DNA from: Phenylobacterium sp. CCH9-H3
GTDB taxonomy: Bacteria; Pseudomonadota; Alphaproteobacteria; Caulobacterales; Caulobacteraceae
Assembly (NCBI RefSeq): GCF_001557235.1
Contig: NZ_LSJI01000103.1
Location: forward strand, 58,717-122,716
DNA: 64,000 nt
Direction of reading: 5' to 3'
A program made the translations under genes and the position numbers. Under the pieces are notes generated by a model. That model saw nothing but the letters and a program-made list of their open reading frames with translations. It did no database searches and had not been told where the DNA came from. This document shows, piece after piece, positions 12,866 to 31,936 of the stretch. Numbering within the stretch: the stretch's first letter is position 1; every line of letters begins with the position of its first letter.

Positions 12866-14005
12866 CTAGCGGCGCGGCGCCGGGTCGTCACGGTAGGCTT
12901 TCACGGCACAGCCCGGCCAGGCCGTCGCCTCATAGACGCCGCGGGCGATGGCCCGTGAAAGCACGTCGGCGGCCAGCGCGCCGATGCGGGCCACGTGATA
13001 GGCGCGCGGTTCCGGCAGGTCTTGCCGGCCCGTGGTGAGCGCGAAGACGACGTCCCCATCGAACGGAGCGTGGACCGGCCGGATCGCGCGCGCCATGCCG
13101 TCCTGGGCCATGATCGCCACGCGCTTGATCTCGCCCGGATCGAGGCGGACATCGGTGGCGATGCAGGCGATGGTGGTGTTCTGCCGCGGCTTTGGGTCCG
13201 CCGCCGTCGGCCCCCACTCGTCGGGGCGGGCCGCCAGGCCCTGGACGCCGAGGCCGCCGAATTCGCGCTCCATCTCGTACGGCGCGGCCCAGAAGCTCCT
13301 CGCGCCCGGCGCGACCGTGGAGCCGGCGCTGTTCACGGCCACGATGGCGCCCACCGTGAACCCGTCGGAGCTCACCACGGACGCCGAACCCGTGCCGCCC
13401 TTCAGGCCGCCCGAGAAAGCGCCATAGCCGGCGCCGGCCGTGCCCAGGCCGAAGGTGTCGGAGGCCCGCTCCACGGCCTCGATGCCCAGGCGGCGATAGG
13501 GCGGATCGAGACCCCAGGCCTTGTCGCCGCCGTGCGGCAGGTCGAACAGGATCGCGCCCGGCACGATCGGCGAGGGCGGCACGCCCGGTGGCCGAGGCCC
13601 CGCGCCATAGCCGATCCCCTTCGCGCCCAGCCAGGCCGCGACGCCGTCGGCGGCCGCGAGGCCGTATACAGACCCTCCGGCCAGGACGATGGCGTTGACC
13701 GCATGCACCAGATTCTCGGCGTCGAGGGCGTCGGTTTCGCGGGTGCCCGGCCCACCGCCGCGCACGTCGACGGCGGCGATGGCCGCCTCGTCGGGGAGGA
13801 TGACGGTGACGCCCGTGCGGGCCTTCTCGTCGTGGGCCTGGCCGACCCGGACGCCCGGCACGTCGGTGATCAGGTTGCGAGCGCCCATCCGTCCAGGGAG
13901 AGGCGTCCGCGGCCGCGGCGCAGCCGCCGGCTGGGGCGCGGCCTTCACGGGCTCTGCCGCTGCGGCGGCTGTGACCAGGGACGCCAGCAGAGCGCGACGG
14001 TTCAT
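12866..14005 (-). CDS. P1 family (S58, DmpA/NylC-type) self-processing aminopeptidase, secreted
   Basis: N-terminal-nucleophile hydrolase of 379 residues. The family includes DmpA, BapA beta-aminopeptidases and nylon-oligomer hydrolase NylC, which release N-terminal residues from peptides, beta-peptides or amides after self-cleavage. Seen here: NRRALLASLVTAAAAAEPVKA, a Sec- or Tat-like leader, then ITDVPGVRVGQAHDE, a family N-terminal motif, and near residue 285 the segment QNTTIACIATDV, where an Asn-Thr bond matches the NylC self-cleavage site. The downstream region GDVVFALTTG is also typical. The start at 14005 is chosen because the leader begins there; the open frame runs on to 14446 without a leader. 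It diverges from the XRE-cupin regulator at 14238 across the operator at 14199. The serine nucleophile of DmpA is replaced by threonine. Confidence 0.85.
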   Translation of the reverse strand: MNRRALLASLVTAAAAAEPVKAAPQPAAAPRPRTPLPGRMGARNLITDVPGVRVGQAHDEKARTGVTVILPDEAAIAAVDVRGGGPGTRETDALDAENLVHAVNAIVLAGGSVYGLAAADGVAAWLGAKGIGYGAGPRPPGVPPSPIVPGAILFDLPHGGDKAWGLDPPYRRLGIEAVERASDTFGLGTAGAGYGAFSGGLKGGTGSASVVSSDGFTVGAIVAVNSAGSTVAPGARSFWAAPYEMEREFGGLGVQGLAARPDEWGPTAADPKPRQNTTIACIATDVRLDPGEIKRVAIMAQDGMARAIRPVHAPFDGDVVFALTTGRQDLPEPRAYHVARIGALAADVLSRAIARGVYEATAWPGCAVKAYRDDPAPRR

Positions 14006-14198
14006 CGGATCGTTTCCCTTGCCGCGCCTGGGCGGCCGACCGACGCGGCGCCAGAGCCGCCCACGCTCCGCACCCGCAGCGTAAATCATGGCGCCTTGCC
14101 CGATATCGGAGCAGGCATCGGGCCGCAGTTTCAAGATGTGGGCAAGTCTATTATTTGCCGCCGGTAAGTCGTTGTTAGAGCACGAGCGCGGGTATGCG

Positions 14199-14218
14199 AC
14201 GCTCATGATATTGAGCGT
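14199..14218. promoter_or_regulatory. Regulon palindrome copy 1 (ACGCTCA-N6-TGAGCGT)
   Basis: A perfect inverted repeat with seven-base arms, ACGCTCA and TGAGCGT, around TGATAT. It lies 20 bases before the XRE-cupin start and within the divergent region to the peptidase gene. It shares the core GCTCA-N6-TGAGC with 14816-14835 and 26250-26269, which indicates autoregulation by the adjacent regulator. Confidence 0.7.
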
Positions 14219-14237
14219 GCCTATCGGAGTTTCGAGC

Positions 14238-14786
14238 ATGGACGGCGAAGTCGGACCGCGGCTACGGACGGTCAGGGCGAAGATGGGCCTCAGCCAGCGG
14301 TCGCTGGCGCGCAAGGCCGGCGTGCCGAGCAGCACCGTGTCGCTCATCGAAGGCGGACGCACCAATCCATCGATCGGCTCGCTGAAGCGCCTGCTGGACG
14401 CCGCGGGCCTGTCGCTGGCCGAGTTCTTCAGCTTCGACCTCGCCACCGAGCAGAAGATCTTCTTCCGGCGCGACGAACTGGCTGAAATATCAAGCGGCGA
14501 CGTGTCTTACCGGCAGGTGGGCGCCGGGGCCGGCATCTCGACGCTGCAGATCCTGCACGAGACCTACCAGCCCGGTTCCGACAGCGGGCGAGTGATGCTG
14601 ACCCACGAAGGCGAAGAGGGCGGCATCGTCATCCAGGGGCGCCTGGAGGTCACCGTTGGGCAGCAGACCCGGGTGCTGAAGGCGGGGGAGGCTTATCTTT
14701 TCCAGAGCACGACGCCGCATCGGTTCCGCAATGTCGGCGACGAGGTCTGTGTCGTGGTGAGCGCCTGCACGCCGCCCACCTTCTAG
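14238..14786 (+). CDS. XRE-family regulator with C-terminal cupin domain (PuuR/SutR-like)
   Basis: Regulator of 182 residues. The N-terminal HTH_XRE spans about residues 7-62 (RLRTVRAKMGLSQRSLARKA, then STVSLIEGGRTNPSIGSL). The C-terminal cupin spans about residues 105-180, with HEGEEGGIVIQGRLEVTVG and LKAGEAYLFQSTTPHRF, the usual effector pocket. ATG 14238 has GGAG eight bases upstream; an upstream in-frame ATG at 14205 would place the operator inside the gene. Members of this family often control uptake and degradation of amines or amino acids, PuuR being the putrescine example. Three matching palindromes nearby suggest that it controls itself, the divergent peptidase, the receptor at 15221 and the operon starting at 26174. 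Confidence 0.9.
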   Translation: MDGEVGPRLRTVRAKMGLSQRSLARKAGVPSSTVSLIEGGRTNPSIGSLKRLLDAAGLSLAEFFSFDLATEQKIFFRRDELAEISSGDVSYRQVGAGAGISTLQILHETYQPGSDSGRVMLTHEGEEGGIVIQGRLEVTVGQQTRVLKAGEAYLFQSTTPHRFRNVGDEVCVVVSACTPPTF

Positions 14787-15220
14787 TTGCGCCTTCGGCG
14801 CCTGCGACGGTCTAGGTGCTCAATGGATTGAGCGACCTCGCGAACATCATGTGTAAAAACAGCATCTTACGATGTGAAACAAATAGGCTGGCGCGGCCTT
14901 GAAGTCAGCGCGAAGCTTTCATTGCAATTGTGAGGAACCGCATGCGGACCGCACATATACTTTAGGTGGTTGATGGTCCGAATATCCACAACCGCAGGAT
15001 CTTCGATAACAGCGCAGCCAGGCGCTCGCATAGTCGTTCGCTCCACGACGACGGACTTATGTCGATGCAGCGATGACGCGCCTCTGGGTTACTGATCTCG
15101 ATCGCCAGTCGGCCAAGACCGACGTCTGAACAATGTCCGTCATGCCCGGGAGGGGCCGCCGCGAAGGTGTCAACAGACCGCCAGCAGCGGGTCGAGGGTC
15201 TGCACATTTGGGGGATTGTG
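14787..15220. other. 434-base intergenic region with operator and possible promoter
   Basis: No convincing gene is seen. The palindrome at 14816-14835 overlaps a possible -35 element TTGAGC (14828-14833), with TGTAAA at 14852-14857 as a possible -10, spacing 18. That would leave a transcript leader of roughly 340 bases before the TonB receptor. No terminator or recognised riboswitch fold could be identified by eye. Confidence 0.5.
14816..14835. promoter_or_regulatory. Regulon palindrome copy 2 (GTGCTCAA-N4-TTGAGCGA)
   Basis: The arms GTGCTCAA and TTGAGCGA match at seven of eight positions, with the core GCTCAATGGATTGAGC. It overlaps a candidate -35 box for the receptor gene at 15221, the position expected for a repressor site. 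The spacing of the core is identical to the copies at 14199 and 26250. Confidence 0.68.
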
Positions 15221-17413
15221 ATGAAGCGATATTTCGTCGGGGCCGCCATGGGCGTTCTGGGGTTCGTCAGCGCCCAGCCTTCCAGCGCCCAGACCTCGGG
15301 GACCGGCACGACGGTCGACGAACTGGTCGTCACCGTGCAGAGGCGTGAACAGGCCGCCCAGGACGTGGGCATCGCCTTGTCCGTCGTCTCCTCCGAAGAG
15401 CTGGTCCAACGCGGCGTCACCAACATCAACCAGTTGCAGAACGCCACGCCCAGCCTGGAGGTCGAGCCGGCCTTCGGCGGCGGCGCACCGCAGTTCCGAC
15501 TGCGCGGCGTGGGCTTCTCGGACTACGCCTCCAACAACGCGCCCACCGTCGGCGTCTATGTAAACGAGGTCGCCTACCCGGTCCCGATCATGACCCAGGG
15601 GCTGATCTTCGACGTCGCGCGGGTCGAGGTCCTGCGCGGCCCGCAGGGCACGCTCTATGGCCGCAACACCACCGGCGGCGCGGTGAACATCATCACCAAC
15701 CGGCCGAGCAAGGCGCTGTCCGCCGGCTTCATGGCCGAGTATGCGCGCTTCGACCATCTGCGGGCGGAGGGCTACGTCTCCGGTCCCGTCCTGGGCGACG
15801 CCTTGCTGGCCAGACTGTCGCTGGCGACGGAGCAAGGCGGCGCCTACCAGCACCGCCGCACCACCGGCGAGGAATTGGGCGACGCCGATCGCCTGGCCGG
15901 CCGATTGCTGCTCCAGTACAAGCCGGGCGGGCCTGCGGAAGCGCTGTTCGACGTCCACGCCGGCCGCGATAGGTCGGAGGCGATCGGCCTCTATCTCTTC
16001 CGCGGCTTCACGACGCGCAGCGGCGCCGGCGTCTTCATTCCCGCCGACGCCGACCGCTTCGCCACGGACTGGAAGATCTCGCCCTTCCTGGCGCGCGACG
16101 CCAACCTGCCGCTGGACGCCAAGCCAGGGGTGGACAACGAGACCTGGGGCGCGTCGCTCAACGCGTCCTACGATTTCGGGCCGGCGACGCTGACCAACAT
16201 CGTCAGCTACGACCAGTTGATCCGCCGCCAGTACGGCGACTGGGACTCCAGCCAGTCCATCGAGGCCGACACCTATTTCGGCAGCAAGGTGAACGTCGTC
16301 TCGGACGAACTTCGCCTGACGTCGAGCGAGGAGGGGCCCCTGCACTACGTGGTCGGCGTCTACTATTCCCGCCAGGAGCTGAAGGAGCAGTACTACTCTG
16401 ACTTCCTCGACAACTTCGGCACCTATGCCCGGGTAAACTACGACCAGAAGGTCGAGTCGATCAGCGGCTTCGGCCAGGCCGAGTACGCGTTCAACGAGCA
16501 ATGGAAACTGATCGGCGGCCTCCGCTACGAGCGTGAGACCCGCCACCTGAACGGCTTTGGCTCAGCCTTCGGCGGCGCCCAGGCGCTGCGGCCCACCAAC
16601 GTCTCGACGAAGATGACGCCCCTGACCGGGAAGATTGAGCTGGACTTCAAGCCTGTGGAGGGCGCGCTGATCTACGCCTCGGCGAGCCGCGGGGCGAAGT
16701 CGGGCGGCTTCACCACCTACAACACCGGCAATTCCTCGGCGATCCAGCCGTTCAAGCCGGAGATCCTCCGGGCCTACGAAGTGGGCTTCAAGACCAACCT
16801 CGTTCCGTCGCTACAGGTCAACGGTTCGGCGTTCTTCTATGATTACAAGAACCAGCAGGTGCTCTCGACGGTGTTCACGGCCAACGGCCTGGTGGGCCGC
16901 TTCGCCAATGTGCCCAAGTCCGAGATCTGGGGCGGAGAGCTCGAACTGGTTTTCCACCCGACGCCCGCCTTCGTCCTGACCCAGAACGTCGGCTACAAGA
17001 AGGGCGAGTACAAAGAGTTCTTCGAGGTCGACGCCGGGGCTTCGCGTCTGGCTGGCCGGGAGATCACCGTCGACCGGGCCGGTCAGAAGATCCCCTTCCC
17101 GGCGTGGTCCTATCAGGGCTCCGCGACCTACACCTGGGACCTGGGCGCCTACGACCTCGCCGCCAACGTCAACTACAACTTCCGCGACCGCAACGTGAAC
17201 TTCCTCGGCGTCCGTTACGCGGTGGCCAGTTCCTGGACGGTCAATGGGGATCTCACTCTGCGGCCGCACGACGGTCCCTGGGCGGCGACGATCTTCGGAC
17301 GCAACATCCTGAACGAGAAGTACGACCTGACGCGCAACTTCTTCACCAGCTCGGACATCGCCCAGCCGGCGCGCCCGCGCGAATACGGCGTGCGGCTGGC
17401 GTACGACTTCTAG
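15221..17413 (+). CDS. TonB-dependent outer-membrane receptor of the XRE-cupin regulon
   Basis: Outer-membrane receptor of 730 residues. ATG 15221 follows GGGGGA five bases upstream. The signal peptide (RYFVGAAMGVLGFVSAQPSSAQ) precedes a TonB box, DELVVTVQRRE. The plug ends with VEVLRGPQGTLYGRNTTGGA and the barrel closes with a terminal phenylalanine (YGVRLAYDF), the outer-membrane insertion signal. Its promoter holds a regulon palindrome, and it converges on the ABC transporter operon, so the pair probably brings the same substrate through both membranes. The ligand is unknown; a peptide or amide is inferred from neighbours. Confidence 0.92.
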   Translation: MKRYFVGAAMGVLGFVSAQPSSAQTSGTGTTVDELVVTVQRREQAAQDVGIALSVVSSEELVQRGVTNINQLQNATPSLEVEPAFGGGAPQFRLRGVGFSDYASNNAPTVGVYVNEVAYPVPIMTQGLIFDVARVEVLRGPQGTLYGRNTTGGAVNIITNRPSKALSAGFMAEYARFDHLRAEGYVSGPVLGDALLARLSLATEQGGAYQHRRTTGEELGDADRLAGRLLLQYKPGGPAEALFDVHAGRDRSEAIGLYLFRGFTTRSGAGVFIPADADRFATDWKISPFLARDANLPLDAKPGVDNETWGASLNASYDFGPATLTNIVSYDQLIRRQYGDWDSSQSIEADTYFGSKVNVVSDELRLTSSEEGPLHYVVGVYYSRQELKEQYYSDFLDNFGTYARVNYDQKVESISGFGQAEYAFNEQWKLIGGLRYERETRHLNGFGSAFGGAQALRPTNVSTKMTPLTGKIELDFKPVEGALIYASASRGAKSGGFTTYNTGNSSAIQPFKPEILRAYEVGFKTNLVPSLQVNGSAFFYDYKNQQVLSTVFTANGLVGRFANVPKSEIWGGELELVFHPTPAFVLTQNVGYKKGEYKEFFEVDAGASRLAGREITVDRAGQKIPFPAWSYQGSATYTWDLGAYDLAANVNYNFRDRNVNFLGVRYAVASSWTVNGDLTLRPHDGPWAATIFGRNILNEKYDLTRNFFTSSDIAQPARPREYGVRLAYDF

Positions 17414-17432
17414 GCTTCAATGATCGAGGTCG

Positions 17433-17458
17433 GGGCCGCCGTGGCGATGCGGCGGCCC
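17433..17458. terminator. Hairpin between convergent genes
   Basis: GGGCCGCC and GGCGGCCC form a perfect eight-base stem around a ten-base loop between the convergent receptor and ATPase genes. No long T-run follows. A bidirectional terminator is the likely role. Confidence 0.5.
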
Positions 17459-17474
17459 TTCGATTCCGTGGAAT

Positions 17475-19085
17475 TCAGCCGCCGCGCGCGGCCAGGGCCC
17501 GCTCCAGATTCGGCGTCGCGGCCAGCAGGCTCTGCGTATAGGCGTGCCGGGGGCGCAGGAAGACCTCGTCCGTCGTCCCCTCCTCCACGATCCGGCCGCC
17601 CTGCATCACCGCCACCCGGTGACAGATCGCCCGCACCACGCCCAGGTCGTGGGTCACGAAGAGATAGGACACGCCAAGCTCCTGAGAGAGCCTGGCCAAC
17701 AGCTCCAGCACCTGCGCCCGGACAGTGACGTCGAGGGCGGAGACCGCCTCGTCCAGGACGACCAGCCGCGGCTCGGTGATCAGGGCCCGCGCAATCGCGA
17801 TCCGCTGGCGCTGGCCGCCGGAGAACTGGTGGGGGTAGCGGTCGCCGGCGTCCGGCGGCAGGCCGACCCGCTCCAGCATGGCCTGCACGGCCTCCCGGCG
17901 CGCCGCGCCCACGGGCGGGCGCTCCAAAAGATGGAAGGGCTCGGCGATCAGGTCCTCGACCCGCCAGCGCGGGTCGAAGCTGCCGAAGGGATCCTGGAAC
18001 ACCGCCTGGATCTTGCGTCGCAGCCGGCGCGCCTCGGCCGGTGACGCCGGCGGAAACGGCGCCCCGTCCAGACGGACCTCGCCGCCCTGCAGCGCCTCGA
18101 GGCCGAGCACGGCGCGCAGCAGCGTCGACTTGCCGGAACCGGACTCGCCCACCAGCCCCACCGTCTCGCCGGCCCGGACCGTCAGACTTACGCCATCTAC
18201 CGCGCGGAACGGCTGGGCCCGTCGCCACGGCGACGTTCGGCGGCCCGGATAGGCGCGCACGAGGCTCCGCGCCTCCATGACCGGCGCGTCGTCCGAAGCC
18301 CTTGCCGGCGGCGCGGCCTTGGCCAGCACGGCGTCCTCCGCAAGCTTGCGGGCGTAGGGGTGCGAGGGGTTGCGGAGCAGGACGCCGGTCGGCCCCTGCT
18401 CGACGATCTCGCCCTGGCGCATGATGGCCACCCGGTCGGCCATCTGGGCCACAACCGCCAGGTCATGGGTGATCAGGATGAGCCCGGCGCCGTCCTCGCG
18501 CACCAGGTCCCTCAGAAGATCGAGGATCTGCGCCTGGGTCGTGACGTCGAGCGCCGTCGTCGGCTCGTCGGCGATGAGCAGCCTCGGCTTCGCCGCCATC
18601 GCCATGGCGATCGCCACCCGCTGACGCTGGCCCCCCGAGAGCTCGTGCGGGTAGCGGTCGAGGGGGAACCGGCTGGCGGGAAGTCCCACCCTCTCCAGCG
18701 CCCGGGCGGCCTGCGCCGTCGCCTCCGGCCGGCCCACGCGCCGGTGCAGGGCGATGGACTCGGCGACCTGGTCGCCGATGCGCATCAGCGGATTGAGCGC
18801 CGTCATCGGCTCCTGGAAGACGACGCCCACCCGGCCGCCGCGCACGGCGCGCATCTCCGCTTCGCCGGCGGCCGCCAGGTCCTGGTCGCCGAGAAGGATC
18901 CGCCCGGACATGGTCGCGCCCGGCGGCGACAGGCGTAGGATCGAGAGTGCGGTGATCGACTTGCCGGACCCGGACTCGCCGACCAGACCCAGGATCTCGC
19001 CCGGCTCCACCTCGAGCGACACGCCCTTGAGCAGCTCGGCCTGACCGATCCGGAGTCTCAGGTCCTCAATCCGGAGCAAGGCCAT
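17475..19085 (-). CDS. Peptide ABC transporter ATPase with two nucleotide-binding domains (DppD-DppF fusion)
   Basis: Cytoplasmic ATPase of 536 residues that powers the adjacent permeases. The first domain has Walker A GLVGESGSGKS, signature LSGGQRQRVAIA and Walker B LLIADEPTTALD. The second has GLVGESGSGKSTLLRAVLG, FSGGQRQRIAIARAL and LVVLDEAVSALD. The layout matches GsiA/YejF, in which DppD- and DppF-type domains are one chain. The start at 19085 lies two bases past the stop of the permease gene, with no better upstream start. It is the last gene of the minus-strand operon that begins at 26174. Confidence 0.92.
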   Translation of the reverse strand: MALLRIEDLRLRIGQAELLKGVSLEVEPGEILGLVGESGSGKSITALSILRLSPPGATMSGRILLGDQDLAAAGEAEMRAVRGGRVGVVFQEPMTALNPLMRIGDQVAESIALHRRVGRPEATAQAARALERVGLPASRFPLDRYPHELSGGQRQRVAIAMAMAAKPRLLIADEPTTALDVTTQAQILDLLRDLVREDGAGLILITHDLAVVAQMADRVAIMRQGEIVEQGPTGVLLRNPSHPYARKLAEDAVLAKAAPPARASDDAPVMEARSLVRAYPGRRTSPWRRAQPFRAVDGVSLTVRAGETVGLVGESGSGKSTLLRAVLGLEALQGGEVRLDGAPFPPASPAEARRLRRKIQAVFQDPFGSFDPRWRVEDLIAEPFHLLERPPVGAARREAVQAMLERVGLPPDAGDRYPHQFSGGQRQRIAIARALITEPRLVVLDEAVSALDVTVRAQVLELLARLSQELGVSYLFVTHDLGVVRAICHRVAVMQGGRIVEEGTTDEVFLRPRHAYTQSLLAATPNLERALAARGG

Positions 19086-19086
19086 A

Positions 19087-19941
19087 TCAGCGGCTCCGGT
19101 CGAGCTTGGGGTCGAACAGGTCGCGCAGGCCATCGCCCAGCAGGTTCAGCCCCAGCACGCTGAGCACGATGGCGACGCCCGGGAAGATGGCCAGCCAGGG
19201 TGCGAAGCCGATCAGGGTCTGCGCCTCGTTGAGCATCCGGCCCCAGCTCGGCGTCGGCGGCTGCGCCCCCAGGCCGACGTAGGACAGCGCCGCCTCGGCG
19301 AGAACGCCCATGGAGAACTGGATCGCCCCCTGCACGATCAGCAGGTTGGCGATGTTGGGCAGGATGTGCTGCAGCGAGATCAGGCCCTTGCCCTTGCCCG
19401 CGACGCGCGCCGCCAGGACGTAGTCGCGGGTCCAGAGCGACAGGGCCGCGCCACGGGCCACGCGGGCGAAAACCGGGATGTTGAAGACGCCGATGGCGAT
19501 GACGGCGTTGATCGCGCCCGGCCCCGTCACGGCGGTGATCATGATCGCCAGCAGCAGCGATGGGAAGGCGAAGATCAGGTCGTTCGAGCGCATGACCAGC
19601 TCGTCCGTCAGCCCGCCCTTGGCCGCCGCCAGCAGGCCCAGCGGCACGCCCACGAGCAGGCCCACGCCGGCCGCCACGACCGCCACCGCCAGCGAATTGC
19701 GCGCGCCCACCAGGATCATCGATAGCACGTCGCGCCCGAAGTGGTCCGTGCCGAACCAGTGGGCCGCCGACGGCGCCCGCAGGCGCCCGGCCATGTCGAG
19801 GTCCGCGACGGGATAGGGCGTCCACACCAGCGACAGCAACACCGCGACTACGAACAGTCCCGTCAGGGCCGCGCCCAGCCAGAGCGCCGGCGACGCGCGC
19901 CCGCCGCGCGCCGTGGGACCGGGGATGGTCGCCTCGCTCAC
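19087..19941 (-). CDS. Peptide ABC transporter permease, DppC-like
   Basis: Inner-membrane permease of 284 residues. It begins at GTG 19941, which overlaps the stop of the preceding gene (GTGA). Features of the DppC/OppC group are the N-terminal helix LWLGAALTGLFVVAVLLSLV, the motif HWFGTDHFGRDVLSMIL after the first helix, and the cytoplasmic EAA loop AARVAGKGKGLISLQHILPN. Five to six membrane segments are visible. It pairs with the permease half of the fusion protein at 19938-22478 and with the double ATPase at 17475. Confidence 0.91.
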   Translation of the reverse strand: MSEATIPGPTARGGRASPALWLGAALTGLFVVAVLLSLVWTPYPVADLDMAGRLRAPSAAHWFGTDHFGRDVLSMILVGARNSLAVAVVAAGVGLLVGVPLGLLAAAKGGLTDELVMRSNDLIFAFPSLLLAIMITAVTGPGAINAVIAIGVFNIPVFARVARGAALSLWTRDYVLAARVAGKGKGLISLQHILPNIANLLIVQGAIQFSMGVLAEAALSYVGLGAQPPTPSWGRMLNEAQTLIGFAPWLAIFPGVAIVLSVLGLNLLGDGLRDLFDPKLDRSR

Positions 19942-22478
19942 GCCGATCGCCTTCTCAGGCGCGGGTCGATCGCGGCATAGCCGAGGTCGACCAGGAAGTT
20001 CACCACCACCACGGCGAAGACCAGCAGCACCACGACGCTCTGCACCACGATCAGGTCGCGTTGCGTGATCGCCTGGAAGACCAGGCGTCCGAGGCCGGGC
20101 AGGAAGAACACGTTCTCCACGATCACCGCCCCGGCCAGCAGGAAGGGGAACTGCAGGCCCACGATGGTCAGGGTCGGGATCAGGGCGTTGCGCAGCGCGT
20201 GGCGGTAGACCACCTGGCCTTCGCTGAGCCCCTTGGCGCGCGCCGTGCGCACATAGTCCTCGTCCAGCGTGTCGATCAGGGCGGAGCGCAGCACGCGGGC
20301 CAGGATCGCCGCCTGGGGCAGCGCGAGCGCCAGGGCGGGGAGGAGCAGCGCCTTGAGCGCCGGCCAAGCGCCTGCGTCCCAGCCCGGAAAACCCCCGGCC
20401 GGCAGCCAGCGGAGCCCGACGGCGAACACCAGCACCAGCAGCATGGCGAACCAGAAGTTCGGCATCGCCATGAACACCTGGGTCATGCTCATGGTCACGG
20501 TGTCGGACGCCTGCCCCCGCCGGCGTGCAGCGAAGACGCCGATCGGGAAGGCCACGGCGACGGCGAGGACCAGCGCCATCAGCGCCAGCGGCAAGGACAC
20601 GGCCATGCGCTCGGCGATGAGTTGGCCGACCGGCACGCGGTAGGTGTAGCTGACGCCGAAGTCGCCACGCGCCAGCCCGCCGATCCACTCGAGGTAGCGC
20701 TGCGGGAGGCTCCCATCCAGGCCCATCTGACTGCGCAAGGCGGCCACGGCTTCGGGGTTGGCGTTGAGGCCCATCATGTACGCCGCGGGGTCGCCGGGGG
20801 TCACCTGGATCAGCAGGAAGACCACGCCCGTCGCCGCCAGGAAGGTCAGGGCCAGGGCCAGCAACCGGCCCCCGACATAGGCCGCCCCCAGCCGCAGGAA
20901 CGCGACCAGCGTCAGCGCCCCCAGGGCCACAAGCGCGATCGGGCCGCCCTGGGCTGACGTCCGGCCGGCGCCCGCCGCGGCGGCGGCGGGCGATCCCGGC
21001 TCGTCGAACCAGGCGTCGGCGACGACGTTGGCCTGCACGGGCGAGTCCCGCCAAAGGCCGCGCAGGCGCGAGTCCCAGACGTTCAGCTTGGGGAACTCGA
21101 ACAGGAAGACGTTGACCGAATCCTCGGCGATCCGCCGCTGGACCGCCTTCAGCAGGCCGGTCCGCGTTGGGGCGTCGACGGCCCGGTCCAGCTGCTCCAG
21201 CAGAGCGTCGAACGCGGCGCTGCGGTATCCGAAATAATAGTCGCGGCCATAGATGTCGTAGTCCATCGGCTCGGTGTGCGAGACGATGGTCATGTCGAAG
21301 TTCTTGTTCTTCAGCACCTGGTCCAGCCACTGGGCCCACTCCAGGTTCTCGATGGTCACCCGCACCCCAGCCTGGGCGAGTTGCGCCGCGACGATCTCGC
21401 CGGACCGGCGGGCGTAGCTGGGCGGCGGCAGCTTCAACGTCGTCGTGAAGCCATCCGGATAGCCGGCCTGGGCCAGCAGCGCCTTCGCCCGCGCCACGTC
21501 GTGCGGATAGAGGCCGGTGAGGTCCACATGGTCCGGGTTCTGCGGCGGGAAGTGGCTCCCGATCGGCTGGCCGTAGCCGAACATGGCGCCGTCGATGATC
21601 GCCTTGCGGTCGATGGCGTGGGCCAGGGCGCGGCGGACCAGCAGGCTGTCGAACGGCGCCTTGGCGTTGTTGAGCGCCAGGATCGTCTCGCCTTCCGTGG
21701 CGCCCACCACCACCCGGAAGCGCGGGTCGCGGCGCAGTTCGGCCAGGTTCTCGGGGGCCGGGAAATTGGGATAGGCGTCGATGTTGCCGGCCTTGATGGC
21801 GGCATAGGCGGCCGTCGGGTCCGGGATGAACCGGAACACCACGGCGTTCAGGCGGGGCTGTGGCCCCCAGTAGGTGGGGTTGCGCACCAGCTCGATCGCA
21901 TCGCCCCGTCGCCAGCGGGCGAACCGGAACGGGCCGGTGCCGATGGGGTGGGCGGCGTTGTCGGCGGCGCTCTTCGGCGAGACCATCACCGCATCGCCCC
22001 AACCCAGCAGGTAGATCAGCGAACCGGCGGGATGCCCCAGCACGAGGCGCACCGTCAGGGGATCGATCACCTCGACGCGTTCGATCGGTTCGAAATAGGC
22101 CTTCTGGGCGTTGGCCGAGTCCTTCGCCCGCGCCCGGTCGAGGGCAAACTTCACGACGCCGGCGTCGAACGGCGACCCGTCGTGGAACCGCACGCCGCGC
22201 CGCAGGCGGAAGACATAGATCCGGCCGTCGGGCGAGACGTCCCAGGACTCGGCGAGCGCGGGTTCCACCTGGCCGGCCGGGCCGATCCGCACCAGTCCCT
22301 CGAAGACGTTGCCGTAGACCACCTCGTCGGTCGCCGCGGCCGCGCCGGCGGTGGGGTCGAGGTTCGGAGGCTCGAGAGCCATGGCCAGGCGAAGGGTGTC
22401 TCGGGCCTGGGCGGCGGTCGCCAGCGTCAGCCAGGCCAGCAGCATCGCCACGCCCGCCAGAAGCGTCCTGAACCGCAT
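19938..22478 (-). CDS. Fusion of peptide-binding protein (SBP_bac_5) with DppB-like permease
   Basis: A single uninterrupted frame of 846 residues joins two transporter parts that are normally separate proteins. Residues 1-25 form a signal peptide (MRFRTLLAGVAMLLAWLTLA); about 26-490 are a DppA/OppA-type solute-binding domain (LAMALEPPNLDPT, FRLRRGVRFHDGSPF, PIGTGPFRFARW). An Ala/Gly-rich linker near 490-512 leads to an extra hydrophobic helix (IALVALGALTLVAFL), which would carry the chain back to the cytoplasm. A DppB permease follows, with LLIQVTPGDPAAYM, RTARAKGLSEGQVVYRHALR and NALIPTLTIVGLQFP. ATG 22478 has GGAG about ten bases upstream; GTG 22505 is an alternative. No stop separates the parts. 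The binding domain would be tethered to the periplasmic face of its own channel. Confidence 0.88.
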   Translation of the reverse strand: MRFRTLLAGVAMLLAWLTLATAAQARDTLRLAMALEPPNLDPTAGAAAATDEVVYGNVFEGLVRIGPAGQVEPALAESWDVSPDGRIYVFRLRRGVRFHDGSPFDAGVVKFALDRARAKDSANAQKAYFEPIERVEVIDPLTVRLVLGHPAGSLIYLLGWGDAVMVSPKSAADNAAHPIGTGPFRFARWRRGDAIELVRNPTYWGPQPRLNAVVFRFIPDPTAAYAAIKAGNIDAYPNFPAPENLAELRRDPRFRVVVGATEGETILALNNAKAPFDSLLVRRALAHAIDRKAIIDGAMFGYGQPIGSHFPPQNPDHVDLTGLYPHDVARAKALLAQAGYPDGFTTTLKLPPPSYARRSGEIVAAQLAQAGVRVTIENLEWAQWLDQVLKNKNFDMTIVSHTEPMDYDIYGRDYYFGYRSAAFDALLEQLDRAVDAPTRTGLLKAVQRRIAEDSVNVFLFEFPKLNVWDSRLRGLWRDSPVQANVVADAWFDEPGSPAAAAAGAGRTSAQGGPIALVALGALTLVAFLRLGAAYVGGRLLALALTFLAATGVVFLLIQVTPGDPAAYMMGLNANPEAVAALRSQMGLDGSLPQRYLEWIGGLARGDFGVSYTYRVPVGQLIAERMAVSLPLALMALVLAVAVAFPIGVFAARRRGQASDTVTMSMTQVFMAMPNFWFAMLLVLVFAVGLRWLPAGGFPGWDAGAWPALKALLLPALALALPQAAILARVLRSALIDTLDEDYVRTARAKGLSEGQVVYRHALRNALIPTLTIVGLQFPFLLAGAVIVENVFFLPGLGRLVFQAITQRDLIVVQSVVVLLVFAVVVVNFLVDLGYAAIDPRLRRRSA

Positions 22479-22512
22479 CCAGAGCTGACTCCGCGCCGCG
22501 CCCACGCGCGCG

Positions 22513-23796
22513 TCAGACCTGACGGGTCAAGAGCGCATAGGCCGACAGCGCCATCACCTTGGCCGAGTTCACCATGTCGTCGATCCCCACGTACTCGTCC
22601 GGCTGGTGGGCCAGGTCGAGGATGCCGGGACCGTAGGCGATGCAATCGCGCAGCTTGCCGATACGGTCGATATGCTTCTGGTCGTAGGTGCCCGGCGAGC
22701 AGACGATCTGCGCCGAGCGTCCCATCACCTGTTCCACCGCCTCGCAGGTGAAGCGCACCACCGGCCGCTCGGGCTCGGTCATCGACGGTCGCACCTCGAA
22801 CAGGTCCCGCAGTTTGTAGCGGAAGCCCTGGCGGGTCTGGACGAGGCCATCGAGAAGGCCACGGATCTGGGCCTTCACCTCCTCCAGGTCCTCCTCGATG
22901 AGCAGGCGGCGGTCCAGGACCATTCGGCAGGCGTCCGGCACCACGGGCGCGGGTAGGCCGCCGGTGACGTCCGGCTGGCCGCCGTGAATCGAGTTGATGT
23001 TGAGGGTCGGCGTCCGCGCTCCGTCCGGGACCACCGGCATCGCGGTCTGGTGCGAGGCCAGCGCCGGGAAGATCCGCGCCTCCAGTTCGTCGATCACGGC
23101 CCCCATGTGGCGCACGGCGTTGTCGCCCAGGAACGGCATGGAGCCGTGGGCGATGCGGCCCTCGGTGGTGATCTCCGACCACCAGACCCCGCGGTGCCCG
23201 ATGCACACCCGGTCGACGTTCAGCGGCTCGGGGATGATCACATGGTCGACGCGGGGCTTGGAGAACCAGCCTCGTTCGGCGAGGTAGGCCACGCCGCCGT
23301 AGCCGCCGCTCTCCTCGTCGGCGGTGCCGGAGATCTCCAGCGCGCCCGGCAGGGGAACGCCGGAATCGATCAGCGCCTCGACGGCGATGACCGAGGCCGC
23401 CAGGCCGCCCTTCATGTCGCAGGCCCCGCGGCCATAGACCTTGCCGTCCTTCACCACCCCGTCGAACGGCGGGACGGTCCAACCCTCGCCGACCGAGACC
23501 ACGTCGATGTGGCTGTTGAAGTGCACGCAGGGGCCGGGGCCTGCGCCTTCCCAGCGGGCGATGACGTTGACCCTCGGATAGGCGTCGCTGTCGCCGGGCG
23601 TGCCTTCGGCGCGCACGTACTCCACCTGGAAACCTCGTTTGCGCAGCCGCTCGCCCAGGTATTCGGCGCAGGGCCGGTAGGCGTCGCCGGGCGGGTTGAT
23701 CGTCGGGAAGCGGATCAGGTCGCGGGTCAGGGCCACCACGTCGTCGGTGCGGGCCTCGATGGACTTCAGCAGGGCGGCTTCGGCGGGGTGGGACAT
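22513..23796 (-). CDS. M20 family metallopeptidase (ArgE/DapE/carnosinase-like)
   Basis: Cytoplasmic zinc peptidase or deacylase of 427 residues. Metal and catalytic motifs are HFNSHIDVVSVGEGW, GRGACDMKGG, the glutamate pair in SGTADEESGG, and a late histidine in SPGTYDQKHIDRIG. A dimerisation (lid) domain occupies the middle. ATG 23796 follows an AGG eight bases upstream; TTG 23799 is an unlikely alternative. Family members hydrolyse N-acyl amino acids, succinyl-diaminopimelate or dipeptides including beta-alanyl peptides. Its position before the peptide transporter and after an aminotransferase fits intracellular cleavage of an imported dipeptide or N-acyl amine. No signal peptide is seen. 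Confidence 0.9.
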   Translation of the reverse strand: MSHPAEAALLKSIEARTDDVVALTRDLIRFPTINPPGDAYRPCAEYLGERLRKRGFQVEYVRAEGTPGDSDAYPRVNVIARWEGAGPGPCVHFNSHIDVVSVGEGWTVPPFDGVVKDGKVYGRGACDMKGGLAASVIAVEALIDSGVPLPGALEISGTADEESGGYGGVAYLAERGWFSKPRVDHVIIPEPLNVDRVCIGHRGVWWSEITTEGRIAHGSMPFLGDNAVRHMGAVIDELEARIFPALASHQTAMPVVPDGARTPTLNINSIHGGQPDVTGGLPAPVVPDACRMVLDRRLLIEEDLEEVKAQIRGLLDGLVQTRQGFRYKLRDLFEVRPSMTEPERPVVRFTCEAVEQVMGRSAQIVCSPGTYDQKHIDRIGKLRDCIAYGPGILDLAHQPDEYVGIDDMVNSAKVMALSAYALLTRQV

Positions 23797-23859
23797 CAAG
23801 GAACCTGTGGACTGGGAAGATGGTCGGCGCGGCGAGGAACGGTCGTGGTCGGCTTGCCG

Positions 23860-25188
23860 TCAAGCGATGGTCGCGAGCACCTCCCGCAGCAGGCTCACCA
23901 TTTCGTCGATCTGGCCGGGTTCGACGATCAGCGCCGGGGACAGGGCCACGATGTCGCCGGTCACGCGCACCAGCAGGCCGCGATCGAAGCAGGCGTGGTA
24001 GACGTCCTGGCCCCGCTCTCCTGGCGCGCCTGGCCGGGACTCGAGCTCGATGCCGGCCACCAGGCCGATGTTGCGTATATCGATCACATGGCGTGCGTCG
24101 CGCAGGGAATGCACGGCGTCCTCGAACGTCGCCTCCAGGCCCGCCGCCCGTTCGAACAGGCCTTCGTCGCGATAGGTGTCCAGCGTCGCCAGACCCGCCG
24201 CGCAGGCCAGCGGATGGCCGGAATAGGTGTAGCCGTGGAACAGCTCGATGGGCGCGTCGGCCTCGCTCATCAGGGTGTCGTGGATGTGCTGGCGCACGCC
24301 CACCGCGCCCATGGGCACCAGACCGTTGGTGATCCCCTTGGCCATGGTGACGAGATCGGGCTGCACCTCGAAGCGGGCGGCCGCGAAGGGCGCCCCCAGC
24401 CGGCCGAAACCGGTGATCACCTCGTCGAAGATCAGCAGGATGTCGTGCTTGTCGCAGAGCGCGCGCAGGCGCTGCAGATAGCCCACGGGCGGCGCCAGCA
24501 CGCCGGTGGAGCCGGCCACCGGCTCCACGATCACCGCGGCGATCGTCGAGGCGTCGTGCAGGGCGACGATCCGCTCCAGGGCGTCGGCCAGTTCGGCGCC
24601 GTGCTGGGGTTGACCGCGTGAGAAGGCGTTTCGCGCCAAGTCGTGGGTGTGCGGCAGATGGTCGACGCCCGCCAGCAGCGTGCCGAAGTACATCCGGTTT
24701 TTGACGATGCCGCCCACCGAGATGCCGCCGAAGCCGACCCCATGATAGCCGCGCTCCCGACCGATCAGGCGGGTCTTGGAGGCCTTGCCCCTCGCCCTCT
24801 GGTAGGCGAGCGCGATCTTCAGCGCGGTGTCGACCGCCTCGGACCCCGAGTTGGTGAAGAACACGTGGTCCAGGTCGCCCGGCAGCAGGCCCGCGACGCG
24901 CGAGGCGAACTCGAACGCGCGCGGATGGCCGAGATTGAAGTTGGTGGCGTAACCCATCTGGGCCGCCTGCTGCTGGACCGCCTCGACGATCCGGGGGCGG
25001 TTGTGGCCCGCGTTCACGCACCAGAGGCCGGCGACGGCGTCCAGCACCTTGCGGCCGTCCGGCGTGAAGTAGTGCATGCCGTCGGAGCGATCGACCATCT
25101 TGGGGGCCGCCTTGAACCGCCGGTTCGGCGTGAACGGCATCCAGTAGGCGTCGAGCGAGTTGGGGACGGCGGTCGACAGGTGGTTCAT
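23860..25188 (-). CDS. Class III omega-amino-acid:pyruvate aminotransferase, BauA-like
   Basis: PLP enzyme of 442 residues. Extended motifs match beta-alanine:pyruvate aminotransferase: YWMPFTPNRRF at the N terminus, VFFTNSGSEAVDTALKIA, RGYHGVGFGG, IAAVIVEPVAGSTGVLAPP, ILLIFDEVITGFGRLG with the PLP aspartate, and MAKGITNG with the Schiff-base lysine. HGYTYSGHPLACAAG is also typical. It would transfer the terminal amino group of beta-alanine or a longer omega-amino acid or amine to pyruvate, giving the semialdehyde. The start overlaps the hydrolase stop by ATGA. The next step would need an aldehyde dehydrogenase, and one lies at 28139. Confidence 0.9.
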   Translation of the reverse strand: MNHLSTAVPNSLDAYWMPFTPNRRFKAAPKMVDRSDGMHYFTPDGRKVLDAVAGLWCVNAGHNRPRIVEAVQQQAAQMGYATNFNLGHPRAFEFASRVAGLLPGDLDHVFFTNSGSEAVDTALKIALAYQRARGKASKTRLIGRERGYHGVGFGGISVGGIVKNRMYFGTLLAGVDHLPHTHDLARNAFSRGQPQHGAELADALERIVALHDASTIAAVIVEPVAGSTGVLAPPVGYLQRLRALCDKHDILLIFDEVITGFGRLGAPFAAARFEVQPDLVTMAKGITNGLVPMGAVGVRQHIHDTLMSEADAPIELFHGYTYSGHPLACAAGLATLDTYRDEGLFERAAGLEATFEDAVHSLRDARHVIDIRNIGLVAGIELESRPGAPGERGQDVYHACFDRGLLVRVTGDIVALSPALIVEPGQIDEMVSLLREVLATIA

Positions 25189-26174
25189 GCCGGCTCCTTG
25201 GCCGCCGCAGGGGCGGCGGGGGTCTGGGCTTTCAGAAAGGCGGCGACGTCCGCCGCGGACCGGTCGGGGATTTCCAGCTGCGGCAGGTGGCCCGCGTCGG
25301 GATAGGTGATCAGCTTTGCGCCGGGGATGGCGGCGGCGAACTTGCGGCCGCTTTCCGGCTTGATGATCACATCCTGGTCGCCGTGCAGCACCAGGGTCGG
25401 CACGGCGATCTTGCCGAGCACCGCCGCGGTCGCGGCGCTGTGCTGACCGGGCTGCATGCTCATCAGGATGTCCCGATGGCCGGGCGCGCGCTGCACCTCG
25501 ACCCAGCGGTCCACGAAGGCCGGCGTGATCAGCGACTTGTCGACCACATCGGCCTTCAGCGCCGCCGAGGTGAGGGGCCGGGTGTCGATGTGCTTGAGCA
25601 GGAAGACGCCCACCGGCGACTGCAACAGGCGGAACGCCAGCGGCGGCTTGGTGAGCGTGGAGGCGGGCCAGCCCGCGGCGTCCACCAGCACCAGGGCGTT
25701 CAGCCGCCGGGGATGCCGGACGGCCACCTGCCAGGCGACGCCGCCGCCCATGGAGTTCCCGGCGATCGCGAAGGGCGGCAGGTCGAGCTTCGCCGCCAGG
25801 GCGTCCACCAGGTCGGCGTAGTTGCCAGGGCTGGGCTGATAGTCGGCCGGCGCGCGGGTCAGGCCGTGGCCCGGCAGGTCGATAGTGATCACCCGGAAGT
25901 CGGGCGACAGCCGCTGGATCCAGCGGTCCCAGGTCAGGAAGGAGTCGCCGTAACCGTGGACCAGCATGATCACCGGCTTCGCGGGATCCCCGTCGTCCCG
26001 GTAGTGCATCCGCACGTCGCCCGGCAGGTCGGCGAACTTCGAGGTCGGTCCAGCATACTTCGCGTCCAGCCGCGCATAGGGAATGTCGGGCCGATTCAGG
26101 ACGAGGCCCGCGACGACCACCAACACCGCCAGCACGGCGACGATCACGCTCAGCACCACGCCCATCTTGGCCAT
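25185..26174 (-). CDS. Membrane-anchored alpha/beta hydrolase
   Basis: Alpha/beta-fold hydrolase of 329 residues. One N-terminal helix (VVLSVIVAVLAVLVVVAGLVL) anchors the domain, which would face the periplasm. The oxyanion region is MLVHGYGDSFLTWDRW, the nucleophile elbow is AGNSMGGG with serine, an acid lies in VLHGDQDVIIKPE, and the catalytic histidine is in DAGHLPQLE. ATG 26174 follows GGAGGG; longer frames lack a ribosome site. As first gene of the operon behind the palindrome at 26250-26269, it may open an ester, lactone or amide before uptake. The exact substrate cannot be told. Confidence 0.87.
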   Translation of the reverse strand: MAKMGVVLSVIVAVLAVLVVVAGLVLNRPDIPYARLDAKYAGPTSKFADLPGDVRMHYRDDGDPAKPVIMLVHGYGDSFLTWDRWIQRLSPDFRVITIDLPGHGLTRAPADYQPSPGNYADLVDALAAKLDLPPFAIAGNSMGGGVAWQVAVRHPRRLNALVLVDAAGWPASTLTKPPLAFRLLQSPVGVFLLKHIDTRPLTSAALKADVVDKSLITPAFVDRWVEVQRAPGHRDILMSMQPGQHSAATAAVLGKIAVPTLVLHGDQDVIIKPESGRKFAAAIPGAKLITYPDAGHLPQLEIPDRSAADVAAFLKAQTPAAPAAAKEPA

Positions 26175-26249
26175 GCACCCTCCACGCGACCGTTTTCGAC
26201 GCCCGAAAAAGACTCTATCGCTCCGGCGACCGCGTCCCAACCGGGTTAA

Positions 26250-26269
26250 GTGCTCAATCCCTTGAGCAC
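26250..26269. promoter_or_regulatory. Regulon palindrome copy 3 (GTGCTCAA-N4-TTGAGCAC)
   Basis: A perfect inverted repeat with eight-base arms GTGCTCAA and TTGAGCAC around TCCC. It lies 76 bases before the hydrolase start, in the gap after the LeuB-like gene, so it should control the operon from 26174 down to 17475. Core and spacing equal those of the copies at 14199 and 14816. Confidence 0.75.
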
Positions 26270-26285
26270 CGGCATCGTACGGGCG

Positions 26286-27398
26286 TCAGGCGATCTCCAG
26301 CTGCCGCAGGACCGCGTCGGTCATCGCCGTGGTGGAGACCGCCGTTGCGTCGGGCGCCGCGATGTCCGCGGTGCGCGCGCCGGCGGCCAGCGCCCGGCGC
26401 ACCGCCGCGTCGAGCCGGTCTGCCGCCTGCGGGGCGTCCATCGAATGGCGCAGGCACATGCCGAAGGAGAGGATGGTCGCCAGCGGGTTGGCGATCCCGC
26501 GCCCGGCGATGTCCGGCGCCGAGCCATGCACCGGCTCGTAGAGCGCCTTGCGCCGACCCTGGCTGTCCGCCGCGCCCAGGGAGGCCGACGGCAGGAGGCC
26601 CAGCGATCCGGTGAGCATGGCCGCGGCGTCCGAAAGGATGTCGCCGAACAGATTGTCCGTCACGACGACGTCGAACTGCTTGGGCCGCCGCATGAGCTGC
26701 ATCGCGCAGTTGTCGGCGTACATGTGGCTGAGTTCGACGTCAGGATAGTCGGCGGCCACACGGGTGGCCATGGCGCGCCAGAAGGCGCCCGTCTGCATGA
26801 CGTTGGCCTTGTCCACCGAACAGACCCGGCGCCCGCGGCCGCGGGCGATGTCGAAGGCGGCGCGCACCACCCGCTCGACCTCGATGGACGTGTAGGCCTG
26901 GGTGTCGTAGGCGCGGCTGACCCCGGCCCCCAGGTCCTCGACGCCCCGCGGCTCGCCGAAATAGACCCCTGCCGTCAGCTCGCGGATGATCAATATGTCG
27001 AGCCCCTCGACGAACTCGGGGCGCAGGCTGGAGGCCGCCACAAGCTCCGGATAGCAGAGCGCGGGCCGCAGGTTGGCGAACAGGTCCATGTCCTTGCGCA
27101 GGCGCAGCAGGCCCGCTTCCGGACGCAGGGCGATCGGCTGGCGGTCCCAGGCCTCGCCGCCCACCGCGCCGAACAGCACCGCATCCGCGGCCAGGGCCAG
27201 GGCCACCGTCTCTTCGGTGATGGGGACGCCGTGGGCGTCGATCGCCGCGCCGCCGACCAGGGCCTCTGAAACCACGACCTTGCGGCCCAGCTCGCGCTCG
27301 AACCAGCGCACGATGCGCAGGGTCTCGGCGACCACCTCCGGGCCGATGCCGTCGCCCGGCAGGACCAGCAGGCGGAACGGCTCAGATGCAGCGCCCAC
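26286..27398 (-). CDS. 3-isopropylmalate dehydrogenase-like protein (LeuB family)
   Basis: Decarboxylating beta-hydroxyacid dehydrogenase of 370 residues. Family motifs are [73 protein letters not shown] and [12 protein letters not shown], close to true LeuB. GTG 27398 overlaps the end of the SDR gene by 17 bases. True leuB genes usually sit with leuC and leuD, which are absent here; it is cotranscribed with a dehydrogenase pair in a catabolic block. It may be the biosynthetic enzyme or a paralogue acting on a tartrate- or malate-like acid; sequence alone favours LeuB chemistry. Confidence 0.82.
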
Positions 27399-28128: not shown

Positions 28129-28138
28129 GCCGCCCCTC

Positions 28139-29802: not shown

Positions 29803-31932
<2,130 letters not shown>

Positions 31933-31936
<4 letters not shown>

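Follow-up and report, generated by a model that had tools for sequence, protein, structure and literature searches.

Which compound is served by a locus in which copies of the palindrome GCTCA-N6-TGAGC accompany a regulator, a TonB receptor and an operon of hydrolytic and transport genes? In the window, by which we mean the whole 64-kb stretch of DNA analysed here, the original prediction had placed a 13-kb coregulated locus (12866..26269) for the uptake and cleavage of a peptide or amide. Coregulated uptake and cleavage of an amide is well supported by genomic copies and by linkage elsewhere, and the amide is most likely pantetheine or pantothenate. A peptide is probably the wrong substrate, since neighbouring genes, the nearest S58 relative of solved structure and panC loss all point to pantetheine/pantothenate. 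Our reading, which we consider probable, is that a PuuR-like XRE-cupin regulator acts through these operators to control a locus that scavenges and degrades vitamin B5 amides, namely CoA-derived pantetheine and pantothenate. The gene identities called at the outset are right, with corrected starts for the regulator (14238), TonB receptor (15221), S58 protein (14005) and hydrolase (26174), and with the solute-binding protein of the predicted ABC transporter found as part of an 846-aa fusion with a permease. The 13-kb extent did not hold: the gene set runs on to 29596, and an ALDH-SDR-LeuB-like (pantoate-type) operon had been overlooked. The features are as follows.

12866..14005, minus strand: S58/P1 amidase, 379 aa, proposed ThnT-like pantetheine hydrolase (Pfam Peptidase_S58, 1.2e-57)
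14201..14216, no strand: palindrome 1, GCTCATGATATTGAGC, between the S58 and regulator genes
14238..14786, plus strand: XRE-cupin regulator, PuuR-like, 182 aa (Pfam HTH_3/HTH_31 and Cupin_2)
14818..14833, no strand: palindrome 2, GCTCAATGGATTGAGC, 5' of the TonB receptor gene
15221..17413, plus strand: TonB-dependent receptor, 730 aa (Pfam plug and barrel)
17475..19085, minus strand: ABC ATPase with two ABC domains, Opp/Yej type, 536 aa
19087..19941, minus strand: putative second permease, 284 aa, GTG start, assigned by position within the Opp-type operon
19938..22478, minus strand: fused solute-binding protein and permease, 846 aa (Pfam SBP_bac_5 and BPD_transp_1)
22513..23796, minus strand: M20 amidohydrolase, NF009558 family (729 bits, cut-off 428), proposed pantothenase
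23860..25188, minus strand: omega-aminotransferase, AptA family, beta-alanine:pyruvate type (NF052567, 740 bits, cut-off 500)
25185..26174, minus strand: alpha/beta hydrolase, 329 aa, with an N-terminal hydrophobic stretch (Pfam Abhydrolase_1)
26252..26267, no strand: palindrome 3, GCTCAATCCCTTGAGC, 5' of the hydrolase-aminotransferase-M20-ABC operon
26286..27398, minus strand: LeuB-like beta-decarboxylating dehydrogenase, proposed 3,3-dimethylmalate dehydrogenase
27382..28146, minus strand: short-chain dehydrogenase (SDR), proposed pantoate 4-dehydrogenase
28139..29596, minus strand: aldehyde dehydrogenase (ALDH), proposed aldopantoate dehydrogenase (Pfam Aldedh)

An exact-pattern search of the 64 kb found the three palindromes, each inside the 20-bp interval claimed for it (14199-14218, 14816-14835 and 26250-26269), and no fourth copy in the window, as had also been claimed. 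Order-1 simulations of 64 kb gave a mean of 0.10 exact copies, and three copies in 0 of 300. With one mismatch allowed, the window holds 4 sites against 3.0 expected, which is chance level, and its 7 families of 5-mer inverted repeats with three copies in 13.4 kb are unexceptional beside the 1-7 seen in 15 simulations. The three palindromes stand above chance because they are conserved in relatives. All of them recur at matching places in two other Phenylobacterium genomes, G001 and G290, together with the genes. The search for conserved linkage elsewhere was mainly favourable. The position equivalent to palindrome 1 is occupied in L001, and by GCTCAGGATATTGAGC in L002; that of palindrome 2 is occupied in both, and that of palindrome 3 in G001 (L119) and G290 (L158). 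Sites and genes are shared with Brevundimonas too, with one site there. A single exact palindrome lies 5' of ALDH in L007, L008, L011 and L181, where that gene opens the orthologous operon, an ALDH-SDR-LeuB-like-M20-XRE series.

Many unrelated copies would have spoken for accident, and here the outcome was again mainly favourable: the nearest genome (G001, 5.8 Mb) has 13 exact sites, 10 of them outside the cluster, which is about chance, with approximately 5.5 expected from the window's base composition. The absence of the exact palindrome from 7 of the 12 close loci counts against the regulon reading. An initial, stricter pattern had few matches among relatives; GCTCAW-N4-WTGAGC gave 23 matches in 12 genomes, 8 of them inside clusters, versus 14 for the reversed control. 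Separately, a second conserved element resembling AGAAAAGGACTTGTT lies 5' of the aminotransferase or ALDH gene in many relatives among the matches listed. An RNA element was set aside, as the window contains no Rfam match at gathering score.

The regulator is of the same XRE-cupin type as that of the E. coli PuuR putrescine regulon, and both loci contain an aminotransferase and an aldehyde dehydrogenase. The likeness has its bounds: the window regulator scores 146 bits against NCBIfam PuuR (equivalog NF007408), below the curated cut-off of 211, and the ALDH scores 352 bits against PuuC, below the cut-off of 850. A relative of the window's aminotransferase (at least 56% identity) shares the regulator's locus in 69 of 80 cases. 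That the regulator binds the palindromes is our inference, as is the direction of control.

The S58 protein carries an NRR-type putative export signal (judged by eye). Among solved S58 proteins it is closest to ThnT, its best PDB match (3.7e-58, 200 bits), with no close match to DmpA (8e-4); it also matches nylon hydrolases at 125 and 71 bits. On these PDB matches, DmpA/BapA-type beta-peptides and nylon oligomers were set aside as substrates. At the alignment column that we take to be the self-cleavage site with its Thr nucleophile, Thr is present in 21 of 21 aligned relatives, with NTT in 17 and ATT in L166-L168 and L170; a ThnT chain has NTT at this site too. According to an excerpt of one report, ThnT degrades the pantetheinyl group to cysteamine (PMC6097109). 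Whereas ThnT serves antibiotic assembly in thienamycin biosynthesis, the window's S58-type Thr hydrolase has an apparent export signal and lies in an uptake locus. Twelve stretches with an S58 gene and no other close cluster gene (L174, L176, L183, L185-L192 and L194) count against a fixed link; two of them come from the panC-lacking genomes G400 and G302. A plasmid search with the S58 protein returned 3 records and nothing useful, and one with the LeuB-like protein returned no records.

Pantothenate degradation was described in Pseudomonas by Goodhue and Snell in the 1960s, with enzymes EC 3.5.1.22, 1.1.1.106, 1.2.1.33 and 1.1.1.84. To our knowledge the pathway is known as activities only, its genes unnamed. 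The window has a linked candidate enzyme for each of the four steps, plus one for removal of beta-alanine, and the reaction types form the same series: hydrolysis of an amide, oxidation of an alcohol, oxidation of an aldehyde and a beta-decarboxylating oxidation. It differs in organism, and in that genes, transport and operators can be proposed. The compound would cross the outer membrane through the TonB receptor; pantetheine would be split into pantothenate and cysteamine by the exported S58 hydrolase, and the fused Opp-type ABC importer would carry the product into the cytoplasm. There, M20 may cleave pantothenate to pantoate and beta-alanine, the AptA-type transaminase may convert beta-alanine to malonate semialdehyde, and the SDR, ALDH and LeuB-like enzymes may take pantoate through aldopantoate and 3,3-dimethylmalate to 2-oxoisovalerate. 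The pantothenase protein is called unknown in an excerpt of a 2023 paper (PMC10393543), and among the matches listed our literature search found neither a gene-level account of pantothenate breakdown nor a TonB receptor for B5.

Not every candidate fits equally well. The kinetics of Pseudomonas pantothenase indicate an acyl-enzyme, so a metallo-M20 enzyme is a poor fit for this role. Nor is the M20 family confined to pantothenate, since relatives that are 61-68% identical also have racemase or hydantoinase genes nearby, in L108, L112 and L114. The aminotransferase passes the curated AptA cut-off. A C. crescentus omega-transaminase active on beta-alanine is presumably AptA itself. Excerpted text on that enzyme reports high activity on beta-alanine and action on beta-amino acids (PMC3281772). 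The LeuB-like protein lies above the cut-off for 3-isopropylmalate dehydrogenase LeuB (TIGR00169, 469 vs 353 bits). A second LeuB copy is present in 8 of 9 related genomes with the LeuB-like gene, and stands beside a LeuD-type gene in all 6 loci examined; the cluster copy is thus a paralogue, and a housekeeping role in leucine synthesis was rejected.

The adjoining operon (26286-29596) lies directly behind the same palindrome in Brevundimonas. M20, SDR, ALDH, LeuB-like and AptA-like genes occur together in L003-L008 and L019, and several related genomes have the SDR near M20, S58 or panBC. In L004, and in G424 (L181, with S58 some 200 bases further), every gene of the window's set but the alpha/beta hydrolase lies in one contiguous run. 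A relative of the TonB receptor is present in 11 of 12 close loci. The fusion of solute-binding protein and permease, with an extra hydrophobic segment (514-532) between the two domains, recurs in matches named Phenylobacterium, Caulobacter and Brevundimonas. Against the set as a unit, no close M20, SDR, ALDH or LeuB-like gene was found at the Novosphingobium loci L009 and L010, which have a single LeuB-type gene, 51% identical.

Linkage also extends to pantothenate synthesis. S58 directly adjoins panC in 4 of 77 genomes having both (G319, G331, G343 and G412). G360 has the run aminotransferase-panB-panC-SBP/permease-ATPase-S58, and G352 the run aminotransferase-panB-panC-M20-SBP/permease-ATPase, where M20 adjoins panC. 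M20 adjoins panB-panC in G253 as well, a neighbourhood that is weak alone because a hydantoinase gene lies on its other side. The panC gene is missing from 8 of 12 cluster genomes, versus 13 of 149 in our sample of the family Caulobacteraceae. By Fisher tests, which ignore phylogeny and in which genome gaps can mimic panC loss, the 13 panC-lacking genomes are enriched in S58 (12/13, p=0.015), strong S58 (10/13, from 52 genomes, p=0.0016) and M20 (6/13, p=0.0004). Genomes with strong S58 and no M20 show no enrichment of panC loss (4/40 vs 9/109, p=0.75).

A locus for beta-alanyl peptides or beta-peptides of the carnosine type would use S58 as a DmpA/BapA-type beta-aminopeptidase and AptA to take off the amino group of beta-alanine. 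The S58 family does include beta-aminopeptidases, an Opp-type importer fits dipeptides, the C. crescentus transaminase accepts beta-amino acids, and M20 matches beta-Ala-His dipeptidase weakly (3.8e-7, far behind DapE-type enzymes). Set against the gulf between the DmpA and ThnT scores, the panB/panC linkage and panC loss, and with the ALDH-SDR-LeuB-like module left without a role, we regard this as distinctly unlikely. Catabolism of nylon-type polyamide oligomers, by a NylC-type S58 hydrolase with the aminotransferase and ALDH as 6-aminohexanoate enzymes, is very improbable: the nylon hydrolase matches are exceeded by that to ThnT, and neither the panBC linkage nor the LeuB-like enzyme would have a reason.

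The locus might instead free pantothenate and beta-alanine, through S58 and M20, for CoA synthesis only, with no carbon catabolism. The SDR, ALDH and LeuB-like paralogue are oxidative, and cells without panC would lack the enzyme to rejoin free pantoate and beta-alanine, which makes such a purpose unlikely. It does accord with the aminotransferase-panB-panC runs and with panC-lacking G395 and G404, which keep TBDR-SBP/permease-ATPase-S58 and have no M20 match at 1e-100; these two genomes also count in favour of the B5 reading. Excerpts of two papers report, in line with it, bacterial cleavage of supplied pantothenate with reuse of its beta-alanine (PMC10393543), and provision of beta-alanine by the R. 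etli beta-alanine synthase gene amaB (PMC7142369). One point counts against B5 catabolism, namely that strains without panC would be consuming a vitamin on which they depend.

Scavenging together with degradation of B5 amides is the reading we retain. A wider form of it, which is possible and to which we give somewhat less than even weight, treats CoA debris as a dedicated nutrient. It would be stripped by the TonB receptor, a periplasmic hydrolase of pantetheine, the phosphatases PhoD and PAP2 (in Brevundimonas) and, in certain strains, a quinoprotein that resembles methylamine dehydrogenase and acts on cysteamine, and the cell would salvage and burn B5 alongside loss of B5 synthesis. As in the mau operon, L001 and L002 have heavy-chain-like, MauE-like, MauD-like and light-chain genes, here between S58 and the regulator, with the L001 light chain and MauE above Pfam cut-offs; the window has none. 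The L009 heavy chain, at 150 bits, falls below the methylamine dehydrogenase cut-off of 454, so the substrate is likely another amine, perhaps cysteamine.

If the B5 reading is true, the locus provides candidate genes for the vitamin B5 breakdown pathway, and candidates for the outer-membrane receptor and the ABC importer that take up B5 compounds. It would also offer a possible reason why Brevundimonas and Phenylobacterium have lost B5 synthesis, and vitamin-destroying bacteria would matter for cross-feeding.

The interval 12866..26269 had been proposed as a regulon for the uptake and breakdown of a peptide or amide. Its gene content stands, and the proposal had overlooked an operon beyond it, in which LeuB-like, SDR and ALDH genes overlap by a few bases. 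From left to right, the cluster comprises:

P1-type hydrolase (S58), minus strand
XRE-cupin regulator (XRE), plus strand
TonB receptor, plus strand
ABC ATPase, minus strand
permease, minus strand
fused binding protein-permease (SBP/permease), minus strand
M20 amidohydrolase (M20), minus strand
AptA-type aminotransferase (AT), minus strand
alpha/beta hydrolase (25185-26174), minus strand
palindrome 3
LeuB-like dehydrogenase, minus strand
SDR, minus strand
ALDH, minus strand

At 19938-22478, an Opp-family binding protein is joined to a permease through an extra hydrophobic segment. This fusion recurs in matches named Phenylobacterium, Caulobacter and Brevundimonas; in certain other genomes, such as that of L116, each part is matched by an open frame of its own. 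Just past the cluster, a LigB-type dioxygenase and an amidohydrolase (29803-32961) perhaps mark an aromatic-breakdown neighbourhood.

Searching related genomes largely bore out the linkage: most of the gene set recurs across 12 close loci, defined by a regulator at least 65% identical to that of the window (L001-L011 and L019; 12 of 80 regulator loci). A TonB receptor relative is found in 11, missing in L011, which is truncated at a contig end. AT occurs in ten, missing in L011 (contig end) and in L002, whose genome carries it on another contig (L158). M20 is present in nine (10 of 12 genomes counting L158) and the ALDH-SDR-LeuB-like trio in eight (10 of 12 genomes counting L119 and L158). S58 occurs in 11 of the 12 genomes and lies in or adjoining the cluster in ten; it stands away from the cluster in G291 (at L154), and none was found anywhere in the G296 genome. 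The alpha/beta hydrolase was seen in Phenylobacterium loci only (window, L119, L158), with a 52% match in L002. Across all 80 regulator loci, an AT relative at least 56% identical shares the locus in 69; seven have a 30-32% relative and four have none. L004 holds a second XRE-cupin gene (4693-5238), 55% identical and divergent from ALDH. The SDR of L195 (16694-17436) shows up as two tblastn pieces of 93% and 58% identity, perhaps an assembly problem.

The three palindromes of the proposal were recovered by an exact search for GCTCA-N6-TGAGC (14201, 14818 and 26252), with no fourth copy anywhere in the 64-kb window. Order-1 simulated sequences contained 0.10 copies on average, and 0 of 300 reached three. 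With one mismatch allowed, the window count is at chance (4 found vs 3.0 expected), and seven families of 5-mer inverted repeats reach three copies per 13.4 kb, vs one to seven in 15 simulations. Because these two counts are unexceptional, the case for the palindromes rests on conservation. The nearest genome is G001 (Phenylobacterium sp. GW715_bin.37; locus L001), whose compared cluster proteins are 91-100% identical to those of the window. A scan of its 5.8 Mb returned 13 exact palindromes, where ~5.5 would be expected at the base composition of the window and the reversed control pattern gave 3; three of the 13 lie within the cluster and ten outside. The longer form GCTCAW-N4-WTGAGC has four matches in G001, three of them in the cluster, and 23 over the 12 cluster genomes (control 14), eight of them inside clusters.

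All three sites recur in G290: two flank the regulator on both sides (L002, 7480 and 8095) and one precedes hydrolase-AT-M20-SBP/permease-ATPase (L158, 8573). L007 and L008 (both Brevundimonas by title), L011 (Bordetella MAG by title) and L181 each have one exact palindrome before ALDH, there the first gene of ALDH-SDR-LeuB-like-M20-XRE; none was found before ALDH in the window. Exact copies are absent from L003-L006, L009, L010 and L019, seven loci of the close set of 12. A matrix from the strong sites gave weaker copies between XRE and AT (L003, L005, L009, L010) and before AT (L007, L008), with scores of 14-19 that overlap off-target matches in the same loci. A near-palindrome such as GTTCAATATAATGAAC, a pattern picked after some of its sites had been seen, lies 10-90 bases upstream of 12/80 regulator genes, vs 4/4000 stretches of 80 bases drawn at random from these loci. 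Separately, a conserved AGAAAAGGACTTGTT-like element upstream of AT or ALDH (L003-L008, L015, L022, L053, L065, L080) could be a -35 region plus an activator site. A long leader of ~390 bases (14834-15220) runs from palindrome 2 to the TonB receptor start, with no Rfam match at gathering score.

Of the predicted "peptide or amide" substrate, the amide is retained and narrowed to a probable pantetheine/pantothenate by the ThnT match, panB/panC linkage and panC loss. The best solved relative of S58 is ThnT (3.7e-58), compared with 125 and 71 bits for nylon hydrolases and 8e-4 for DmpA. A review passage describes ThnT as degrading the pantetheinyl group to cysteamine (PMC6097109). Judged by eye, an N-terminal RR-type signal is present in 11 of 21 aligned S58 copies (window, L001, L004, L009, L153, L157, L165, L171, L172, L184, L193); it was not seen in L166-L168 and L170, all adjoining panBC, though L165 also adjoins panBC. 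No other close cluster gene was found near S58 in 12 stretches read (L174, L176, L183, L185-L192, L194).

M20 matched at 1e-100 in 16 of 289 genomes of the class. Among the 15 besides G001 (12 read at up to 20 kb; G248, G036 and G118 at 4-kb loci only), S58 adjoins M20 or lies <1 kb away in five (L099, L108, L110, L111, L113), a transporter binding protein or permease is near in nine (L104, L107, L110, L111, L113, L115-L118), and SDR with ALDH in two (L116, L118). Since racemase or hydantoinase genes are near M20 in L108, L112 and L114, its specificity may extend beyond pantothenate, and pantothenase is a candidate role.

S58 directly adjoins panC in G319, G331, G343 and G412 (the last with the SDR too), four of the 77 genomes with both in a 149-genome family sample. 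AT adjoins panB in G319, G343 and G360, the last with the run AT-panB-panC-SBP/permease-ATPase-S58. M20 adjoins panC in one of nine sample genomes with both, G352, in the one-strand run AT-panB-panC-M20-SBP/permease-ATPase, and also adjoins panB-panC in G253. Cut-offs were exceeded by AptA in G319, G352 and G360, panB in G412, G352 and G360, and panC in G412 and G352; panC of G319, G331, G343 and G360 exceeds the Pfam cut-off. The panB of G319, G331 and G343 was identified solely from tblastn matches, and in G319 the aligned stretch crosses a stop.

panC is absent from 8/12 cluster genomes vs 13/149 family genomes. With p values that take no account of phylogeny or assembly gaps, the 13 panC-less family genomes have S58 at 1e-60 in 12 (p=0.015) and M20 in six (p=0.0004), and ten of them are among the 52 with a strong S58 match (p=0.0016). 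Strong S58 without M20 shows no excess of panC loss (4/40 vs 9/109, p=0.75), so the signal tracks M20 and the uptake cluster more than S58. G395 and G404 have neither panC nor M20 (searched at 1e-100) and retain the TonB receptor, SBP/permease, ATPase and S58, as would be expected of a vitamin-salvage version. G400 and G302, also without panC, have S58 but lack the receptor, SBP/permease and ATPase as neighbours. Brevundimonas diminuta requires pantothenate for growth, and no panC match was found in the genome of ATCC 11568 (G296). In a table passage, this strain's row has zeros where other Brevundimonas have ones, under column headings outside that passage (PMC7142369).

Between S58 and regulator, L001 and L002 carry methylamine-dehydrogenase-like heavy-chain, MauE-like, MauD-like and light-chain genes; the same four are matched in L009 and L010. 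In G339, heavy chain, MauD and light chain adjoin TonB receptor, S58, ALDH, SDR and M20. None were found in the window. The L009 heavy chain falls far under the methylamine dehydrogenase cut-off (150 vs 454 bits). Pantetheine cleavage would yield the amine cysteamine, which we infer to be the natural candidate substrate. PhoD-type and PAP2-type phosphatase genes in L005, with relatives in L006, L008, L019 and L181, would suit phosphorylated substrates.

The pathway of Goodhue and Snell reportedly runs from pantothenate through pantoate, aldopantoate and dimethylmalate to 2-oxoisovalerate, and the linked enzymes of the cluster supply the same reaction types. The LeuB-like protein of the window is above the LeuB cut-off. 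A second copy, 50-62% identical, occurs in eight of nine genomes with the cluster copy (11 genomes searched, a set that leaves out G290) and adjoins a LeuD-type (Aconitase_C) gene in all six loci examined (L144-L147, L149, L151), which would leave the cluster copy free for another 3-alkylmalate, e.g. 3,3-dimethylmalate. The roles of the individual enzymes, step by step, are proposals.

A 2023 paper reports bacterial cleavage of added pantothenate with reuse of the beta-alanine, and states that the pantothenase protein is unknown (PMC10393543). No gene-level account of pantothenate breakdown was found in the literature searched, which left out most subscription papers. The original observation is confirmed and extended, to a cluster whose substrate is quite probably pantetheine/pantothenate.
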